This document shows positions 1-31,348 of a DNA stretch of 33,325 nt, one piece after another; the first letter of the stretch is position 1; every line of letters begins with the position of its first letter. The stretch is from NCBI GenBank assembly GCA_012034055.1, contig JAAUSG010000026.1:1-33325 (forward strand), in the 5' to 3' direction. This DNA comes from Leptolyngbyaceae cyanobacterium RU_5_1 (lineage in GTDB: Bacteria; Cyanobacteriota; Cyanobacteriia; Leptolyngbyales; Leptolyngbyaceae). Below the pieces are notes generated by a model. That model was not told where the DNA came from, searched no databases, and saw only the letters and a program-made list of their open reading frames with translations. Both the position numbers and the translations under genes were made by a program.

Positions 1-1897
1 TTTCCAGGTCTCGCCCGGTGAGGACGCGATCGCCCATGCCGAGCAAGCCCCAAATCCTCTGCGACAGCCTGCGCCGTGAGTTGATGGTCTCCCGTGATCA
101 TGACAGGGCGAATTCCGGCTGTCCGGCAACGAGCAACGGCTTCTCGGACTTCTGGACGAGGCGCATCCAGCATTCCCGCCAGCCCAACCAAACTAATTCG
201 CGTTCAGTTGCGTCGTCCGCCTCATCATCTGGAATCTCCGCCAACGGTTTGCAGGCAAAGCCAAGCACTCGCAATCCCCGACCTGCCATTTGGTCGTTGC
301 GCTCCAAAATTCGCTGGCGTTGCTCATCCGTAAGGGGTTGAGCTTCACTATCCACCTGAATCTGCGTGCAGCGCTCTAAAATTAGCTCCGGTGACCCTTT
401 GGTGAACATCACATAGGGACAGGGACCATCGGCGACGCCGTAAGCCTCGTCCACCACTTCTACGACGACGCTCATGCGTTTGCGTTCAGATGAGAAGGGA
501 AATTCAGTCTTACGGGGCAGCTTACTGGACCACTGATCTCTCTCAAACCCCGCTTTCGCCGCTAGCGAGAGCAAGGCTCCTTCGGTTGGGTCACCCAAAA
601 TAATCCACTCATCGTTGTCCTGTTGCAGAATGGCATCGTTACAGACCACACAAGCGGTGAGCAAATTCAGCAGCTCCGGATCATCCTCCGGTTCGATGGG
701 CAGTGCGGAATCAAACTGTTCGCCCATTGGGTAAAATTTGCCCAGCGGGTCATAGCCTTCGCCCGTGATCCGCATCGACTTTGTGGCGGTGTCTGCCAGC
801 TTCACCACCATCTTGTTTTGCGTTAGGGTACCGGTCTTGTCGGAACAGATGGTCGTTACAGACCCCAGTGTTTCTACGGCCGGGAGCTTACGGATCAGCG
901 CATTTCGCTTCACCATTCGCTGAGTTCCCAAGGCGAGTGTGACGGTGATCACGGCTGGAAGTCCCTCTGGAACGATCGCCACCGCCATACTCAGAGAAAC
1001 TTCCACCAGTTCCTTCCATGCCCCCCATCCCAAGACGAGAATGCCACCAATCACAACCAGTCCGACCAGCGTCATCGCGCCGGTAACCAGGGTTTTGCTG
1101 AGCTGCGCCATGCGCTGCTGCAGGGGCGTCGGCTCTGACTCTACCGACTGCAACAAGGTGGCAATCCGTCCCAGCTCGGTTTTCATGCCAGTATTGGTAA
1201 CGACGGCTGTGGCCCGCCCGTTGACAATATCCGTGCCTTGAAACACTAGATTGATGCGATCTCCCAGCGACGTATCATCCGGCAGTTCCAAATCTGCCTG
1301 TTTACTCACCGCATGGGCTTCCCCCGTCAATGCTGCTTCACGCACCTGTAAATTGGCTTCCTCCAGCAGGCGGGCATCGGCGGCAACCTGAACTCCTGCC
1401 TCCAGCAGCATGATGTCTCCAGGCACCAGATCCTTTGAGTCCACCTCAACGGCTCTGCCGCTCCGAACGACTCGCACCCGTGACGACGCCATTTTCTTGA
1501 GAGCCGCCAAATCTTTCTCTGCTTTGCTCTCCTGGAAGTAGCCCAGCAGCCCGTTCAGGATCACAATAGCCAGAATCGCGATCGTATCCTTAAACGGGAT
1601 CTCTCCCGGCTTTAGGGTTCCATTGCGCAGGTCAATGAAGTCAATGGTGCCGGACACCAGTGCAACTACAATCAACAGGATCAGCATGATATTGGTGAAC
1701 TGATCCAGCAAAATCTGCCAGGCGCTTCGTCCCCCGGTTTCCTCAATTTCATTGGGTCCAAAGCGCTCCAGATTGGCAGCGGCTTGCTCAGTCGTCAAAC
1801 CAGATTGGCGATCGCTCTGCAACGATTCCAGAGCTTCACTGGCACCCACAGAATGCCAGACAGTAGTGGAGTTTGAGGTGGAAGAAAGAAGAGTCAT
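1..1897 (-). CDS. P2A-type cation-transporting ATPase, N-terminal part, frameshifted, runs off the left edge
   Basis: Membrane P-type ATPase that would pump a cation (Ca2+/PMA1/PacL-like) using a phospho-aspartate intermediate. The N-terminal cation-ATPase domain is followed by paired membrane helices, the actuator motif [10 protein letters not shown], the M4 motif [17 protein letters not shown] typical of P2A pumps, and the phosphorylation loop [13 protein letters not shown]. The nucleotide-binding domain follows. ATG at 1897 is preferred over an in-frame TTG at 1912, although no clear Shine-Dalgarno is seen. The uninterrupted frame ends at a TGA at 98-100. Reading on in the next frame recovers the hinge motif MITGDH (about 85-102). 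The original frame then resumes near 48, giving [11 protein letters not shown]. So a C-run at 183-185 seems one base short and one at 48-51 one base long. The family is about 900 residues; roughly 630 are covered here. It may be a real pseudogene or two sequencing errors. The transported ion is not certain. Confidence 0.85.
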
Positions 1898-1915
1898 ACA
1901 AAGCGCAGGCAATAA

Positions 1916-1950
1916 GTGTTATAACACCAACAGCACTTAACTATAGTGCT
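1916..1950. promoter_or_regulatory. Two dyads in the divergent promoter region
   Basis: The 113-bp gap between the divergent ATPase and AAA-ATPase genes holds a perfect 12-bp palindrome, GTGTTATAACAC (1916-1927). It is followed by the inverted repeat AGCACT (1932-1937) / AGTGCT (1945-1950). Their placement just upstream of a cation pump suggests an operator, for example for a metal-responsive repressor. That role is inference; no regulator gene lies in the window. Confidence 0.35.
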
Positions 1951-2010
1951 TAGATTCTAACGATTGGCACTATTAAGCAGTATAAACTTCGCATAAATTG
2001 ATTTTGTCTC

Positions 2011-3204
2011 ATGGTCGCCAATCCATTCATCCCCGAAAATCTCGTCGGGCGGCAGGCAGAACGGTATCAGATCATCCAGGTTCTAGCCGCTGATGGTGAC
2101 CTGCTGGTTGCTGGCGTACCTGGAAGTGGGCGACGCACCCTGATTCGCTATGCGGCTCACGATGTAGGAGCCAAAGTGATTGAAATTGATTGCCTGCGGG
2201 CAACTGATAGCCGCCGATTTCTGCATTTGCTAGCAGAGGGCATCCTGTTCTGCTTTGAAACACCGGCTGAACTAGCTCTGATTCAGCGCTGGAGTACTCA
2301 TCAACCCATTGTGCTAGAAGAATCCGCGAGTGGACAAGCACGACTCGTGTGGCACGCCGCGTCTATCGATGAATGGCAACTGTTGCAAACCCTACTCGCC
2401 CTCCCGCAGGTAATGGCAGAGTGGCTCAACAGTCGCATCGTGATCGTTTTTCAAAACTTTACACACATTCGTTCCTGGGACCGTTCCGAGAAGTGGGAAA
2501 ACTACCTGCGCCAGGAAATTCAGCAGCAAAGTCGCGTCAGCTATGCCCTAATTACCACCGTTACCGAAAACTGGATGCAACAGAGTGATATGCAGGTCGT
2601 GTTTTTGGGACCGCTCAAGAATGAAGACCTGCAATCCTGGCTGATTGAAGCAATGGCAACTCACGGGTTGAAGTTTGAACCGCAAGCCCTGGAGCTGTTT
2701 CTGAACTATGTGCAAGGCAGTTTTGGAGACGCGATCGCCCTTGCCCGTCGCCTCTGGCTCGACCATCAAGCTTTTGAGAATTTTAGATTTCAGATTGCCG
2801 ATTTTGGATTGGGCAAACCGGAAGACGATCCCTTTGGTAAAACAAGTCCAGATGAACAAGTTCAATCCAAAATCCAAAATCTAAAATCTAAAATCGGACT
2901 CATTCAGGCTCACCAGGTTCACCGCAGCACCCTCGCCCTGATTGAAGACCTCTCCCTTACCTTTGAGTCGTTGCTCTTGCTGCTCCCTCCCAGCCAGGTT
3001 CGCGTCCTGGAAAGCCTTGCCCTTGATCCCACCGACAGTCCCCATTCGCGAGAGTACATTCAAAAGCACCACCTTTCCAGAGGCGGTGGACTCCAGGGCG
3101 CACTAGCCAGCCTACAGCAGAAGGGGCTGGTCTACGGCCCAGAGCACGGCTACCGAATCACAATGCCGCTGCTGGCATTTTGGCTCAAGCACCGGTTGAC
3201 GTGA
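2011..3204 (+). CDS. AAA-like ATP-binding protein with an in-frame repeat insertion
   Basis: A 397-residue protein that begins NPFIPENLVGRQAE and then has a P-loop, GVPGSGRRTL, at about residues 35-44. This resembles AAA/STAND-type ATPases found as single genes in cyanobacteria. The usual P-loop lysine is replaced by arginine, so ATP hydrolysis may be weak or absent. A hydrophobic strand, RIVIVFQNF, near residue 147 could be the Walker B position but lacks the usual acidic pair. The C-terminal third resembles a winged helix (DSPHSREYIQKHHLSRGGG, then QGALASLQQKGLVY). Residues about 256-296 are encoded by a palindromic repeat and read like the low-complexity FRFQIADFGLG/SKIQNLKSKI insertions seen in other cyanobacterial proteins. 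ATG at 2011 is the first in-frame start. It may be transcribed from the shared region with the divergent ATPase. The cellular role is unknown. Confidence 0.7.
   Translation: MVANPFIPENLVGRQAERYQIIQVLAADGDLLVAGVPGSGRRTLIRYAAHDVGAKVIEIDCLRATDSRRFLHLLAEGILFCFETPAELALIQRWSTHQPIVLEESASGQARLVWHAASIDEWQLLQTLLALPQVMAEWLNSRIVIVFQNFTHIRSWDRSEKWENYLRQEIQQQSRVSYALITTVTENWMQQSDMQVVFLGPLKNEDLQSWLIEAMATHGLKFEPQALELFLNYVQGSFGDAIALARRLWLDHQAFENFRFQIADFGLGKPEDDPFGKTSPDEQVQSKIQNLKSKIGLIQAHQVHRSTLALIEDLSLTFESLLLLLPPSQVRVLESLALDPTDSPHSREYIQKHHLSRGGGLQGALASLQQKGLVYGPEHGYRITMPLLAFWLKHRLT
2778..2897. repeat. Palindromic heptad-type repeat inserted in frame in a gene
   Basis: A left arm (2778-2811) and a right arm (2863-2897) are near-perfect inverted copies built from units like ATTTTAGATT and TTTTGGATTG, separated by about 50 bp. 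The reading frame passes through without a stop, adding roughly 40 codons to the AAA-like ATPase gene. Both strands translate to the same kind of SKI(Q/G)NLKSKI peptide, as expected for a palindrome. Such MITE-like elements are known from filamentous cyanobacteria. Confidence 0.7.
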
Positions 3205-3206
3205 AC

Positions 3207-3295
3207 GTAAAAGGATGAAGGATTAAAAGGAAAGAACAAGCAGTTCGCTTCATCTCTCTACTCTTTATCCCTTTATCTCCCCACCTCCCCCAAGA
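3207..3295. repeat. Purine-arm/pyrimidine-arm degenerate repeat
   Basis: Directly after the AAA-ATPase stop codon comes a purine-rich run (AAAGGATGAAGGATTAAAAG), then a complementary pyrimidine-rich run (CTCTTTATCCCTTTATCTCC). Together they form a long imperfect inverted repeat. The same layout recurs after thiG and after the MAPEG gene. The 124-bp gap holds no gene; the thiG ribosome site (AGAGGATATCACC) lies at its right end. Confidence 0.5.
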
Positions 3296-3328
3296 ACGCT
3301 ACTCTAAGGATGAGTAGAGGATATCACC

Positions 3329-4153
3329 ATGCAGACATTAGAAAAACCTTTAGAGCGCCCGCTAGAAGAGCCACTCGTGATTGCAGGGCGCACCTTTCAG
3401 TCTCGCTTAATGACTGGAACGGGCAAATACCACACCTTTGACCAAATGCGGCAGAGTATCGCCACGAGCGGTAGCCAGATCGTAACCGTTGCAGTCCGCC
3501 GTGTTCAGACCCATGCACCGGGACACGAGGGACTGGCTGAAGCGTTGGATTGGTCAAAGCTGTGGATGCTGCCCAACACGGCGGGTTGTCAGGCGGCAGA
3601 GGAAGCCATCCGGGTGGCTCGGTTAGGACGAGAGATGGCAAAGCTGCTGGGTCAAGAGGACAACAACTTCGTCAAACTGGAAGTCATTCCCGATGCCAAA
3701 TATCTCCTCCCCGACCCAATTGGCACCTTAGAAGCGGCAGAAACACTGATTCAGGAAGGTTTTGCAGTTCTGCCGTACATCAACGCCGATCCGCTGCTGG
3801 CAAAACGGTTGGAAGAAGCCGGATGCGTGACCGTGATGCCGCTTGGGTCACCCATTGGCTCTGGGCAAGGCTTGAAAAATGCTGCCAATATCCAGATCAT
3901 TATTGAAAATGCCAGGGTGCCGGTGGTGGTGGATGCTGGCATTGGGGTACCCAGTGAAGCCGCTCAGGCAATGGAAATGGGAGCGGATGCGCTGCTGATT
4001 AACACCGCGATCGCCCAAGCCCAAAACCCGATTGCAATGGCCCACGCCATGAAGCTGGCAACTGAAGCTGGCCGATTCGCCTATCAAGCTGGACGCATTC
4101 CGATCAAAGTCTACGCCAGTGCCAGTTCACCCACGACGGGGACGCTTCAGTAG
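3329..4153 (+). CDS. thiG: Thiazole synthase ThiG
   Basis: ThiG makes the thiazole phosphate half of thiamine in the cytoplasm from deoxyxylulose phosphate, dehydroglycine and ThiS thiocarboxylate. The 274-residue protein shows the family signatures: [13 protein letters not shown] near residue 22, the Schiff-base lysine in [16 protein letters not shown] (K116), [11 protein letters not shown], and [15 protein letters not shown] with the phosphate-binding [10 protein letters not shown]. It is close to the usual 255-270 residues but has an N-terminal extension of proline/leucine/glutamate repeats ([13 protein letters not shown]), probably disordered. The ATG follows a good Shine-Dalgarno, AGAGG. 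It is not fused to ThiO and no other thi gene adjoins it. No TPP riboswitch was recognised upstream. Confidence 0.96.
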
Positions 4154-4154
4154 G

Positions 4155-4395
4155 GAGTGGGGGATGAAGGGATGAAGGGATGAAGGGATGCATTTGGCTC
4201 ACTTCACTTGCCTTAATCTTCTTTCTTTGTTCTTTAACCCATCATCTTCTTACTCTTCACTCTCCACCCTTTACCTCTTCATCGCTTCATCGCTTTACTT
4301 CTTACTTCTCGCCTCGCACCTTGTACTTTCTTCACTCTTTATCCCATCATCCCATCATCCCTTTACCTCTTGCCTCGTCGCACCTCTCGTCTTTC
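4155..4395. repeat. 8-bp tandem repeat (GGGATGAA) with downstream complementary pyrimidine tract
   Basis: Nearly four copies of GGGATGAA stand at 4161-4190, right after the thiG stop. A long T/C-rich stretch follows, containing the complementary ATCCCATCATCCCATCATCC at 4341-4360. The two ends could pair over about 150 nt. The 472-bp gap from thiG to psb34 holds no convincing gene: the small ORFs here encode only Ser/Leu/His-rich translations of the pyrimidine tract. From about 4400 to 4625 the DNA is ordinary AT-rich sequence that probably carries the psb34 promoter. Confidence 0.6.
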
Positions 4396-4625
4396 GCCTA
4401 CAAAGTATTTCAAAGTGTCAATAAATTTACTAAACTTAACGCTAGTAAGTAGTAGGCAGGCATGATTAAACCGAAGACTCGACTGACCAGGTATTCGGTG
4501 GCAGGTGGCAGGAAAATGACTGGTTCTGACACCTGGAACCTAAACCTGAAAGATCTTGCATTTAAATGAGTTATTCTACTTACTCGTGTGATCCAGTTAA
4601 CGTCAATAAAAATTGAGGATAGTTC

Positions 4626-27822: not shown

Positions 27823-29847
27823 ATGCTCGTTTGTCCTCGATGTCAGTTTGAAAATCCCACGGCAAACAAGTTTTGTCAGAAGTGTGGCACTTCACTGACA
27901 TATAACACCTGCCCTGACTGTGACAGCCCTGTTCTATTTGAGCAAATGCATTGTCAGGAATGTGGCGCGATCGCTGGAGTGATGTGGTGGGCAATTATCG
28001 TAACAAATCAGCCAGCCCCTGTAGACATACACGTCCCTGATAACTCCTTGGCAACGGTACTGCATGGGTATTTAGATTTGCAGCAACGGTATCAGCTTTT
28101 GGAACCGCTGCCTCCACCCAATGAATTGGGGGAGCAACAGACTAAAGTTTTGGACTGCCAGCCATTTCAGTTATCACTGCTAGAAACATTGGTACTTCCT
28201 CAGCAAACGTCTGAGGAGATGGAATTTGACTTTGACCGTTCAGCCGTGGAAGAGGACGCTGAAATAAAAGGTTGGTCGGAATCGATGGATGCGATGGCGG
28301 TTCCTGCGATCGCCAAACCCTACGTTGCCCTTAGAAATCAGTTCTATCACGCGCTTCCGGCGATTCACAACGCCTGGCAATGGAACGAGCGATCCATTTT
28401 TCTAGTGGAAGATCGGTCTGAGTTCCCCTTTTTGATGGATTTTTGGTGTACTGAGCAGCCTCCGTTGCCGTTACTTCAGGTGTTGCAATGGCTTTACAAT
28501 ATGGCGGAACTTTGGGAGGCGTTAGCACCCTGGGACTGTCAGCAGAGCTTGCTGGTTATCTCTAATTTGCGGATTGATACTGACGAAGAGACCCTCTGCT
28601 TGCAGCGCTTATACCCAAATCCACCGGATAGGACTCCCACGTTGCAAGATTTGGGATGCATGTGGCAAGCCATGTTTGCAGAGTCTCAAAAGATTCACCT
28701 GAAGTCTATCTCTCAAATCTTGACAGACATAGATAATAAAACACTGGTGTCCGCAGAGGCAGTGCGATCGCGAATTGAGGCGATCGCGCAAGCTCTTCAA
28801 CCTGATTTACCCAATCCCAATGAGGAAGCACCTACTGAAATGAATCCAGACAACGGTTTGAGCCAACCGAACAACAGCCAGGAGTCCGATTCAGCGACTC
28901 CAACTCGTATTGAACCTCCCTCAAATGCAGCTGGATCAACCAGCGAAGACAGCCAGTTTGATAATGATGAAATACCAACCATCGTGCTGCCCATGCAGCT
29001 TTTTAACCTGGAGGAAATTGGTCGTACCGATGTGGGTCGGCAGCGGGATCACAACGAAGACTATTTTGGAATTGAAACCCAGGTGACTAAGGTGGAAAGT
29101 CCTTCTGGCAAAACGATCCATGCTCGTAACCTTTACATTCTGTGTGACGGGATGGGAGGGCACGCGGGAGGCGAGGTTGCGAGTGCCTTAGCGGTTGATA
29201 CGGTTCGGAAGTTCTTCAAAGAGAAATGGCAGGAAACTCCCTTTCCCAACACTGGAGCGAACCGCTTACCGGACGTTGCGACGCTGAGTCAGGCAGTGTT
29301 GCTCGCCAATCAAGCCATTTACGATGTGAACCAGCAGAATGCTCGTTCTGGAAGTGGACGGATGGGCACAACCCTGGTCATGCTATTGATTTACGATACT
29401 GAGGTCGCGGTTGCGCATGTTGGCGACAGCCGTCTGTACCGCTATACCCGCAAGCGAGGGATGGAGCAAATCACGGTTGACCATGAAGTCGGGCAGCGAG
29501 AAATTCAGCGGGGAGTCGATCCGGAGGTTGCCTATGCCCGTCCTGATGCCTATCAACTTACTCAGGCGTTGGGCCCCCGTGATGAGCACTTTGTCAAACC
29601 GGATGTGCAGTTTTTTGAGCTGAACGAGGATATGCTCTTGCTGCTGTGCTCGGATGGACTCTCAGACAACGATTTGCTGGAAAAGCACTGGGAAAGCCAT
29701 GTGCAACCGTTGTTAAGCTCTCAAACCAATCTGGATAAAGGGGTCAGTCAACTGATTGAGTTAGCGAATCGGTACAATGGCCACGATAACGTGACGGCGA
29801 TCGCGATCCGTGCCAAAGTTCGCCCCAGTCTAGATCATCTTAGATAA
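27823..29847 (+). CDS. Zinc-ribbon PP2C-type serine/threonine protein phosphatase
   Basis: A 674-residue cytoplasmic protein. Two zinc ribbons open it: C4-x2-C7 / C18-x2-C21 and C30-x2-C33 / C44-x2-C47. A middle region of about 330 residues has the hydrophobic pattern of a degenerate kinase-like fold (SLLVISNLRIDTDEETLCLQRL, then LGCMWQAMF). A Ser/Asn-rich linker leads to the PP2C domain (about 395-665). Its metal-binding motifs are DVGRQRDHNEDYF, LCDGMGGHAGGE, VAHVGDSRLYR, LLLCSDGLSDNDLL and GHDNVTAIAI, which would make it an active Mn/Mg-dependent phosphatase. ATG at 27823 follows AGAGGAAA; an in-frame TTG at 27763 is less likely. It lies upstream of an FHA-kinase on the same strand, probably its signalling counterpart. 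Confidence 0.93.
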   Translation: MLVCPRCQFENPTANKFCQKCGTSLTYNTCPDCDSPVLFEQMHCQECGAIAGVMWWAIIVTNQPAPVDIHVPDNSLATVLHGYLDLQQRYQLLEPLPPPNELGEQQTKVLDCQPFQLSLLETLVLPQQTSEEMEFDFDRSAVEEDAEIKGWSESMDAMAVPAIAKPYVALRNQFYHALPAIHNAWQWNERSIFLVEDRSEFPFLMDFWCTEQPPLPLLQVLQWLYNMAELWEALAPWDCQQSLLVISNLRIDTDEETLCLQRLYPNPPDRTPTLQDLGCMWQAMFAESQKIHLKSISQILTDIDNKTLVSAEAVRSRIEAIAQALQPDLPNPNEEAPTEMNPDNGLSQPNNSQESDSATPTRIEPPSNAAGSTSEDSQFDNDEIPTIVLPMQLFNLEEIGRTDVGRQRDHNEDYFGIETQVTKVESPSGKTIHARNLYILCDGMGGHAGGEVASALAVDTVRKFFKEKWQETPFPNTGANRLPDVATLSQAVLLANQAIYDVNQQNARSGSGRMGTTLVMLLIYDTEVAVAHVGDSRLYRYTRKRGMEQITVDHEVGQREIQRGVDPEVAYARPDAYQLTQALGPRDEHFVKPDVQFFELNEDMLLLLCSDGLSDNDLLEKHWESHVQPLLSSQTNLDKGVSQLIELANRYNGHDNVTAIAIRAKVRPSLDHLR

Positions 29848-29860
29848 AACCATTTGTCGA

Positions 29861-29900
29861 GGTTTCAGGTTCCAGGTTTCAGGTTTCAGGTTTCAGGGTT
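29861..29900. repeat. Heptamer tandem repeat GGTTTCA
   Basis: Five copies of GGTTTCA (second copy GGTTCCA) run from 29861 to 29895, ending in GGG. They lie 14 bp after the phosphatase stop. They are partly complementary to the ACCTGA-type heptamers at 29981-30030, so a hairpin spanning the gap to the kinase gene is possible. This is a short tandemly repeated repetitive sequence of the cyanobacterial kind. Confidence 0.7.
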
Positions 29901-29990
29901 TTTAATCATAGGCTTCTAGCTGCAGGTGATAGGTTTGGAGTTTAAGGCTTTACCAACTTCTCTTAGGCTCAATACCTGGCACCCGACACC

Positions 29991-30042
29991 TGATACCTGA
30001 CCCCTAATTGTTCGCCTGACACCTGACCCCTAATTGTTTGCC
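29991..30042. repeat. 26-bp tandem duplication abutting the kinase start
   Basis: Two head-to-tail 26-bp units, 29991-30016 and 30017-30042, share ACCTGACCCCTAATTGTT and differ at only two positions. The second copy ends one base before the kinase ATG (30044). No Shine-Dalgarno is visible in it, so translation starts from duplicated repeat DNA. Confidence 0.75.
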
Positions 30043-30043
30043 C

Positions 30044-31348
30044 ATGGTCATTCTGACCCTTCTGCATCCCCAAGAGCATACTCCGCTTAAGGAATGGCAC
30101 TTTGAGCACGAAACCCTGATCCGGATTGGTCGTGCCCTGGAGAATCAGGTTGTTCTCAGTCATTCTGTAGTTTCCCGCTTTCATGTTGAACTGCGCAAGG
30201 TTGACCTAGCCAACTCACCTGGCAGCAATGTTCAAACGCCACCTTGCTGGCAACTGATCAATCACAGCGTCAATGGAACCTTTATTGAAGGCCAAGCCGT
30301 TGCTCAGGAATTGATTACCGATGGCATGTTGATTCAACTTGCCTCGGAAGGTCCCATTCTCCGATTTCAGACTGTAACCCGTTCAATGACGACACCAGAG
30401 TCCGTTGTTGAACAATCAATGTCTGAGACAACAGTACCCAATCAGGCACTCTCTAAACAATCTGCGCCAACTCGCTGCACCCATAGTGGAAATCCATCTG
30501 AAAATTTATTCTGTATTCATTGCGGGCAACCTGTTCGAGTTGAAAAAACCATTCGCCACTATCAGGTGTTACGGGTCCTCGGTCGGGGAGGTATGGGGAC
30601 AACCTATCTCGTATGGAACCCTATCGATGCTCCAAGGCTGGGTAGACCCCCTCAAGGCAAGTTACAGGTACTCAAGGAAATGAATGCCGATATTGCCCAA
30701 ATTCCTAAGGCTCAGGAGTTGTTTGTGCGAGAAGCCCGAACGCTCAAATCACTCAGCCATCCTGGAATTCCTCAGTACTACGATTTCTTTATCGAAGAAG
30801 ACAAGAAATACCTGGTCATGGAACTGATCCATGGTCAGGATTTAGAAAAGCAAGTTCGTCAAAACGGAGCAGTGCCGCCTGAGCAAGCGATTCACTGGAT
30901 GATTCAAGTCTGTGAAGTGCTGGATTACTTACATAGCCGTCCGGCTCCAATCATCCACCGCGATATTAAGCCAGGGAATTTGCTGGTGCGGACGGTGGAC
31001 AACCGAATTGTGGTGCTAGATTTTGGAGCCGTGAAAGCGGTTGGTATGCCACCAGGTACGCGGATTGGGGCTGAAGGCTACAGTGCCCCTGAGCAAGTTC
31101 AGGGACGGGCTGTGATCCAATCGGATCTGTATGCGATCGGCCCCTGTTTGGTCTTCCTTTTAGCTGCTGCAAGTCCACAACGCTTTTACCGAAGGCGTGG
31201 ACAGACACTCCGGTTTTCGTTGGAAGGGATTGAGGATATCCCGCGCAACTTACAACTGGTGATTCAACGAGTGACGGAACCGCACCCAGACAACCGTTAC
31301 CAAACGGCAAAAGAGCTAATTCAGGCACTCAAGGACTGCTTGATTTGA
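30044..31348 (+). CDS. FHA-domain, zinc-knuckle serine/threonine protein kinase
   Basis: A 434-residue cytoplasmic Hanks-type kinase. An N-terminal FHA domain (about 5-110) has the phosphothreonine-binding core IRIGR (26-30), SVVSRFH (41-47) and INHSVNGTFIEG (72-83). A zinc-knuckle remnant, CTHSGNPSENLFCIHCGQPV, spans 145-164. The kinase domain (about 172-434) keeps GRGGMGTTYLV (glycine loop), VLKEM with K211, HRDIKPGN (D307), DFG (326-328) and SAPE (347-350), so it should be catalytic. There is no transmembrane segment. ATG at 30044 is preferred to TTG 30038; no ribosome site is seen. It is downstream of the PP2C gene and ends 1 bp before the convergent DUF4327 stop. FHA binding to its own phosphosites or to a partner's is an expected control but unproven. 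Confidence 0.93.
   Translation: MVILTLLHPQEHTPLKEWHFEHETLIRIGRALENQVVLSHSVVSRFHVELRKVDLANSPGSNVQTPPCWQLINHSVNGTFIEGQAVAQELITDGMLIQLASEGPILRFQTVTRSMTTPESVVEQSMSETTVPNQALSKQSAPTRCTHSGNPSENLFCIHCGQPVRVEKTIRHYQVLRVLGRGGMGTTYLVWNPIDAPRLGRPPQGKLQVLKEMNADIAQIPKAQELFVREARTLKSLSHPGIPQYYDFFIEEDKKYLVMELIHGQDLEKQVRQNGAVPPEQAIHWMIQVCEVLDYLHSRPAPIIHRDIKPGNLLVRTVDNRIVVLDFGAVKAVGMPPGTRIGAEGYSAPEQVQGRAVIQSDLYAIGPCLVFLLAAASPQRFYRRRGQTLRFSLEGIEDIPRNLQLVIQRVTEPHPDNRYQTAKELIQALKDCLI

Follow-up and report, generated by a model that had tools for sequence, protein, structure and literature searches.

Adjacent genes for a protein kinase and a protein phosphatase have been found in bacteria before, and one such gene pair is PrpA/PknE of Anabaena, in which PrpA is a PPP-type phosphatase. 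In Synechocystis spkI is described as lying upstream of pphA (PMC11863333), and in Pseudomonas Stk1 is described as a neighbour of Stp1 (PMC1262709). FHA-kinases are on record in cyanobacteria (PMC1262709), as are PP2C phosphatases with zinc ribbons in the Cyanobacteriota (PMC12088040). A 2025 review states that the responsible kinase is unknown for most cyanobacterial phosphorylation events, and calls for work to identify the kinases and phosphatases (PMC11863333). The subject here is a phosphatase gene followed by a kinase gene in Leptolyngbyaceae cyanobacterium RU_5_1, at positions 27823 to 31348 of a stretch of 33,325 nucleotides (contig JAAUSG010000026.1 of assembly GCA_012034055.1), the whole of which is called the window.

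It is proposed, with moderate confidence, that these two genes form a conserved writer-eraser pair built on a ribbon-(pseudo)kinase plan, in which the ribbon-pseudokinase half of the phosphatase addresses it to the complexes or substrates of the kinase.

A phosphatase and a kinase encoded side by side

The upstream gene (27823..29847, plus strand, with an ATG start at 27823) encodes 674 amino acids and, by its sequence, is a clear member of the family NF011149/PRK14559, with an NCBIfam score of 836.4 bits against a cut-off of 374 and residues 1-671 of 674 matched. Its PP2C catalytic domain lies at approximately residues 395-672 (29005..29838), where the Pfam models PP2C_2 (42.9 bits, cut-off 24) and PP2C are both above cut-off, and the metal Asp residues 413, 442, 611 and 655 are kept in 81/81 phosphatases, these being the window protein and those of 80 named loci that are the best 80 of 471 and lean to near relatives. 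At the N-terminus residues 4-48 (27832..27966) match the Pfam DZR model at 39.3 bits (cut-off 27.3), and the eight Cys, set in CxxC knuckles, are present in all 81 sequences, so that on its residues this head is a true double zinc ribbon. Both open reading frames of the original prediction are where it put them and both of its ribbon sequences, NPTANKFCQKCG and NPSENLFCIHCG, are present; its two intact ribbons in the phosphatase stand as well, whereas its placing of them ahead of PP2C passes over some 340 residues with a predicted pseudokinase.

The downstream gene (30044..31348, plus strand) encodes 434 amino acids counted from an ATG that has a start codon at the matching place in most relatives examined, the frame being open from a TTG at 30038. 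Pfam finds two domains above cut-off, FHA at residues 28-101 and Pkinase at residues 175-431. The first (30119..30340; 37.6 bits, cut-off 20.7) keeps the phosphothreonine-binding motifs G-R, S-R-x-H and N-G, and the second (30560..31330; 122 bits) is a Hanks-type Ser/Thr kinase domain with VLK, Glu, HRDIKPxN and DFG intact. When the window kinase is taken together with 64 relatives, the FHA residues G, R, S, R, H, N and G are found in 65/65, and so are the Lys, helix-C Glu, HRD, catalytic Asn and DFG of the kinase domain. The predicted structure of the kinase has a predicted local distance difference test (pLDDT) of 83.5 and a predicted template modelling score (pTM) of 0.62. As the kinase, phosphatase and FHA residues are all intact, the pair is read as a writer of phosphate marks and the eraser of those same marks, and the two proteins would share substrates.

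It is apparent that the two genes are usually kept together. The orthologous kinase lies behind the phosphatase on the same strand, with its start no more than 590 bp away, in 63/80 loci, and in one other locus it is 5.4 kb away. Counted from the kinase, with orthologues defined as rows with E <= 1e-90 in searches of the order and the class, 58/74 genomes from 14 families have the two genes adjacent in the same order and on the same strand, separated by 121 bp at the median. This second sample was drawn from 42 genomes in the order and 291 in the class, with 33 genomes searched again, and the two samples overlap and share records, so the counts are not independent. The 16 orthologues that are not adjacent comprise ten from a single genus, four others with the genes on different contigs (in one of which both genes are at contig ends and may be adjacent), one at a distance of 5.5 kb and one for which no phosphatase orthologue was found. 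The conserved adjacency that had been foreseen is thus borne out, and the opposite case, that the genes are seldom linked, fails. Among the gene clusters in the neighbourhood of the 80 loci the kinase (64) is by far the most constant, followed by a small membrane/TPR-like protein recognised by eye (38) and a pseudouridine synthase (29). Phosphatase and kinase are probably co-transcribed.

A predicted pseudokinase within the phosphatase

Up to E 1 Pfam has no match to phosphatase residues 53-436, and no kinase match in the protein, and by eye the region is kinase-like with the motifs absent. A PDB sequence search with the alignment gave 13 weak matches, which were mostly zinc-ribbon proteins and included no kinase. 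Profile alignment with hhalign found the region collinear with the kinase domain at E 0.0005-0.001 and a probability of 22-32%, compared with E 0.3-0.6 for the control alignments to FHA and PP2C; the loop motifs were poorly placed by the global-mode alignment, which was not used. With no Pfam kinase match, no kinase from the PDB search and a weak hhalign result, detection of the pseudokinase from sequence alone was rejected.

An AlphaFold2 model of phosphatase residues 1-352, made from 56 sequences, has a pLDDT of 88.4 and a pTM of 0.83. Protein kinases make up all 50 of the matches listed by Foldseek for this model, and VIA-align superposes residues 84-328 of it on known chains with Z up to 12.8 (175 residues, root mean square deviation 3.3), with Z at or above 8 for all 1000 chains compared and only kinases among the 50 rows shown. 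It is therefore predicted that residues ~84-328 (28072..28806) adopt a protein-kinase fold. In the window protein the position of HRD is taken by Q241-S242-L243, and the position of its Asp is L, V or I in 81/81 phosphatases. DFG has probably become Q261-R262-L263, with no Asp at the first position among the residues printed for 80 of the 81 sequences, although this placement, made from the hhalign alignment, the strand positions of the model and the spacing, is less secure than the one given for HRD. The catalytic-loop Asn248 is kept in 81/81. The predicted fold would therefore be one that has lost HRD and DFG, and the predicted architecture of the phosphatase is ribbon-pseudokinase-PP2C.

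The same architecture is probably recurrent in this genome, as two other PP2C proteins, on contigs C55 and C115, match the pseudokinase region by profile (L177:3211-4947 on the minus strand and L211:1171-3186 on the plus strand). Both have a ribbon-like N-terminal Cys motif by eye, below the Pfam cut-offs. The PP2C gene at L177:3211-4947 lies near a gene for a CHAT-FHA protein (L177:811-2475).

Ribbon heads, paralogous genes and competing explanations

The kinase also has a head, placed directly before its kinase domain (30476..30523; C145, H147, C157 and C160 counted from the ATG), which had been taken for the same type of ribbon as that of the phosphatase. This part of the original prediction does not hold. 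The form C-x-H...FC-x-x-CG is found in 65/65 kinases, the first knuckle in the window being C-T-H-S, and CxxC...CxxC in 0/65, and the head reaches 12.1 bits where the cut-offs for Zn_Ribbon_1 and DZR of Pfam are 25 and 27.3. For these reasons the idea of one intact ribbon carried by both proteins was rejected. As the His is invariant, the metal site may be of the C/H/C/C type, and what the two heads do share is half a ribbon, aligned over 18 columns with the pattern NPxxNxFCxxCG (90% probability in hhalign). Nor is the head peculiar to this pair, because 7/30 other kinases examined in the genome have a Cys motif immediately ahead of the kinase domain, as judged by eye from the 60 residues preceding it, and a second FHA-kinase is among the seven. 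Such heads, which we take to be SpkB-like (CxNPxC...FCxxCG-like), are thus a recurrent cyanobacterial kinase module and not a private badge, and a head private to the pair was likewise rejected.

That second FHA-ribbon-kinase has an arrangement of its own. In the same genome (contig C140, L208:680-3202) it lies directly behind a gene for a double-ribbon-FHA protein, and its kinase motifs have decayed, with Lys and DFG lost (VLR, HQD and GLT), so that it is probably itself a pseudokinase. The DZR and FHA layout of the double-ribbon protein is presumably like that of Anabaena FraH, a likeness of layout only. In the class sample the double-ribbon-FHA gene is directly upstream in at least 47/55 second-kinase rows (E ~1e-113 or less); of the eight others, one has it on another contig and seven have no verdict among the matches listed. 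Amongst 17 paralogous neighbourhoods hand-picked from the kinase search rows, 16 have the same arrangement and one starts too near the contig end. From the sequences this second kinase is often decaying, and in 3/17 of these neighbourhoods its ribbon is eroded and the gene pair retained, which speaks against a shared head as the reason for the pairing. The coupling in 47/55 speaks for a functional connection of double-ribbon proteins with FHA-ribbon-kinases. In at least 4 genomes, a lower bound from about 100 rows, the genes for double-ribbon-FHA protein, phosphatase and first kinase stand in a row, as at L084, where the double-ribbon-FHA (171-860), DZR-pseudokinase-PP2C (976-3147) and FHA-C-x-H-kinase (3225-4457) genes are all on one strand.

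The proposed pair could work as follows. The product of the downstream gene would be an active Ser/Thr kinase, with an FHA domain to read phosphothreonine and a C-x-H ribbon directly before the kinase domain, and that of the upstream gene an active PP2C phosphatase, its N-terminal half consisting of a zinc ribbon and, after it, a catalytically dead kinase fold, in the order that ribbon and kinase have in the neighbouring protein. This half may target the phosphatase to complexes or substrates marked by the FHA-ribbon-kinase, by imitating or binding either the kinase or its scaffold, and the adding and removing activities would thus be held at one location. Targeting is the most likely role of the ribbon-pseudokinase half, with the pseudokinase the likely docking part and the ribbons perhaps serving as binding surfaces. 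No kinase is found behind the phosphatase in part of the loci, and in the class a PP2C-level match occurs in 218/291 genomes (a count that includes matches covering the PP2C domain only) as against a kinase match in 103/291 at the same threshold. The targeting half must therefore also serve phosphatases without this partner, where it may perhaps work with other ribbon kinases. By profile this N-terminal half is found in 138/292 genomes of the phylum at E 1e-5 and in 82/292 at E 1e-30, with PP2C paralogues giving second and third matches.

A thiol or zinc redox switch is a different explanation for the ribbons, in which they would be sensors and oxidation or loss of zinc would shift the kinase and the phosphatase in opposite directions. 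The position of the kinase ribbon directly before the catalytic domain and its C/H/C/C residues, invariant in 65/65, would suit such a sensor, and the activity of SpkB, a thioredoxin target, is described as redox-modulated through its Cys-rich N-terminal extension (PMC10651672). The example of SpkB makes this a serious rival; it is nevertheless thought unlikely, as the head of the pair's kinase is one Cys short of CxxC...CxxC and the paralogous family can lose the ribbon and keep the gene pair.

It had also been supposed that shared heads recruit both proteins to a common partner, the identity of the ribbon being the address. What survives of this is a functional link, which the gene linkage and the paralogous coupling support, and recruitment by ribbon is plausible in itself; two paralogous loci each couple a double-ribbon protein with an FHA-ribbon-kinase, and the two heads resemble each other in the NPxxNxFCxxCG half. 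What does not survive is the identity of the heads, which differ in type. Heads are also present on other kinases of the genome and the phosphatase does occur without the kinase, so that a single partner binding both ribbons is possible and rather doubtful. The more telling shared architecture is the ribbon together with the (pseudo)kinase, not the ribbon alone.

The two genes might instead be co-regulated neighbours and nothing else, a general PP2C beside one of many kinases, kept in balanced dosage and with no coupling of their products. The phosphatases that lack the kinase and the greater number of genomes with the phosphatase would both be expected under such an arrangement, as would the separation of the genes in one genus. 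Other neighbours vary and the kinase stays, however, and dosage alone would hardly account for the paralogous coupling and the three-gene clusters, so this explanation is regarded as improbable. An antiphage module resembling KKP or PD-T4-6 is very improbable and was rejected as disfavoured, for although the kinase matches many PADLOC PD-T4-6 models (best 233.8 bits, with three aligning from just before the ribbon head) and KKP likewise combines a PP2C with an FHA kinase (PMC11341870), models of the kinase domain pick up Hanks kinases of any kind, the PP2C is followed by a single kinase where KKP has two and then, as the next open reading frame of at least 80 amino acids, by purK on the opposite strand, the pair has no nucleotide match in 72,556 plasmids, and its stable chromosomal arrangement (in the order a phosphatase match, in some cases to the PP2C domain only, in 42/42 genomes and a kinase orthologue in 21/42) is not that of a patchy mobile element.

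Returning to the writer-eraser pair with a targeted phosphatase, there are several observations that count against it. In 16/80 loci, one of them with only 52 bases after the phosphatase, there is no kinase behind it, and the pseudokinase must therefore have a use apart from this kinase. In the single genus with ten exceptions both genes are kept and are far apart on one contig in eight genomes and on different contigs in two. A scan for promoters and terminators found no more sites than in shuffled sequences, and an operon is neither supported nor excluded by it. The fold itself is a prediction. The Foldseek TM-scores normalised by query are only 0.31-0.37, which is to be expected where one degenerate domain is compared within a larger model. 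In the same hhalign test pairs of unrelated domains gave E values of 0.3, 0.54, 0.013 and 0.035; the profile match is weak on its own, and the pseudokinase claim therefore rests mainly on the predicted structure. Lastly, Thr386 (28978..28980) is invariant in 81/81 within an acidic linker, D-D/E-x-P-T-V/I-V-L, before the PP2C domain, and was considered as a speculative FHA-ligand site, since its Leu at +3 would fit what FHA domains bind. It is equally invariant in phosphatases without a neighbouring kinase (17/17), so it gives no specific support for partner-specific docking, and as a partner-specific ligand it was rejected.

A number of further features surround the pair. The spacer between the genes (29848..30043), which exceeds the median gap in relatives, contains short direct repeats of an AGGTTTC type and a CACCTGACCCCTAATTGTTxG type. 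In one relative of the same order (L050) the kinase orthologue has one in-frame stop and is on another contig than the phosphatase. The small protein of the 38/80 loci, which fall between L101 and L169, has a membrane segment and a TPR-like repeat by eye; in 37 of the 38 it is mostly of about 130 amino acids, is encoded some 2.6 kb downstream of the phosphatase and is found mainly in Nostocales, and at L101 it is longer and upstream of the phosphatase. In eight loci without the kinase (L104, L106, L107, L111, L113, L114, L118 and L120) one and the same gene, for a protein of 202 amino acids that is ribosomal-protein-S4-like by eye, follows the phosphatase, a different fixed context where the kinase is missing.

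Comparison with known systems

A kinase and a phosphatase kept together across 14 families are a candidate cognate pair, and a pseudokinase in a widespread phosphatase family offers a testable targeting mechanism. A literature search, from whose coverage subscription journals were mostly absent, found no description of the gene pair, of a pseudokinase in PRK14559 or of the recurrence of double-ribbon proteins with FHA-kinases. The passages that describe SpkI/PphA and Stk1/Stp1 have adjacent genes as here, and mention no ribbon-pseudokinase phosphatase and no FHA-ribbon-kinase partner.

Degenerate Hanks folds within bacterial multidomain proteins are also known from ActPs, GLW, CP1, DYD and DLHK. 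CP1, which is found mainly in cyanobacteria and proteobacteria, is described as always linked to COG3899 (PMC12599244), and PP2C has no matches in the main text of the same paper. The phosphatase has no ATPase family among its Pfam matches up to E 1, and so the COG3899 ATPase link of CP1 is not found in it.

Since double-ribbon proteins and FHA-ribbon-kinases are found side by side more than once, they may belong to a small modular signalling system whose parts were shuffled in evolution. In the paralogous pair the protein with the FraH layout has an FHA domain in place of the pseudokinase-PP2C part, and its likeness to FraH is by layout alone. A fraH null mutant is described as having no honeycomb thylakoids in its heterocysts (PMC11500504). 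A wider and quite tentative scheme, considered unlikely as a whole, would be a ribbon-addressed modular system in which DZR erasers and readers of the FraH layout are matched gene by gene to FHA-C-x-H writers, with the dead kinase docking the eraser, all in one complex that possibly organises thylakoid or other internal membranes.

In SpkB of Synechocystis and other Cys-headed kinases a Cys motif likewise stands directly before the Hanks domain, and unlike these the kinase of the pair has an FHA domain added at its N-terminus and C-x-H as its first knuckle. The phosphatase belongs to NF011149/PRK14559, the description of which has neither the pseudokinase nor the linked kinase. The phosphatase family, FHA-kinases and ribbon PP2Cs were each already known, and to these are added here the linkage of the pair, the predicted pseudokinase and the paralogous recurrence.

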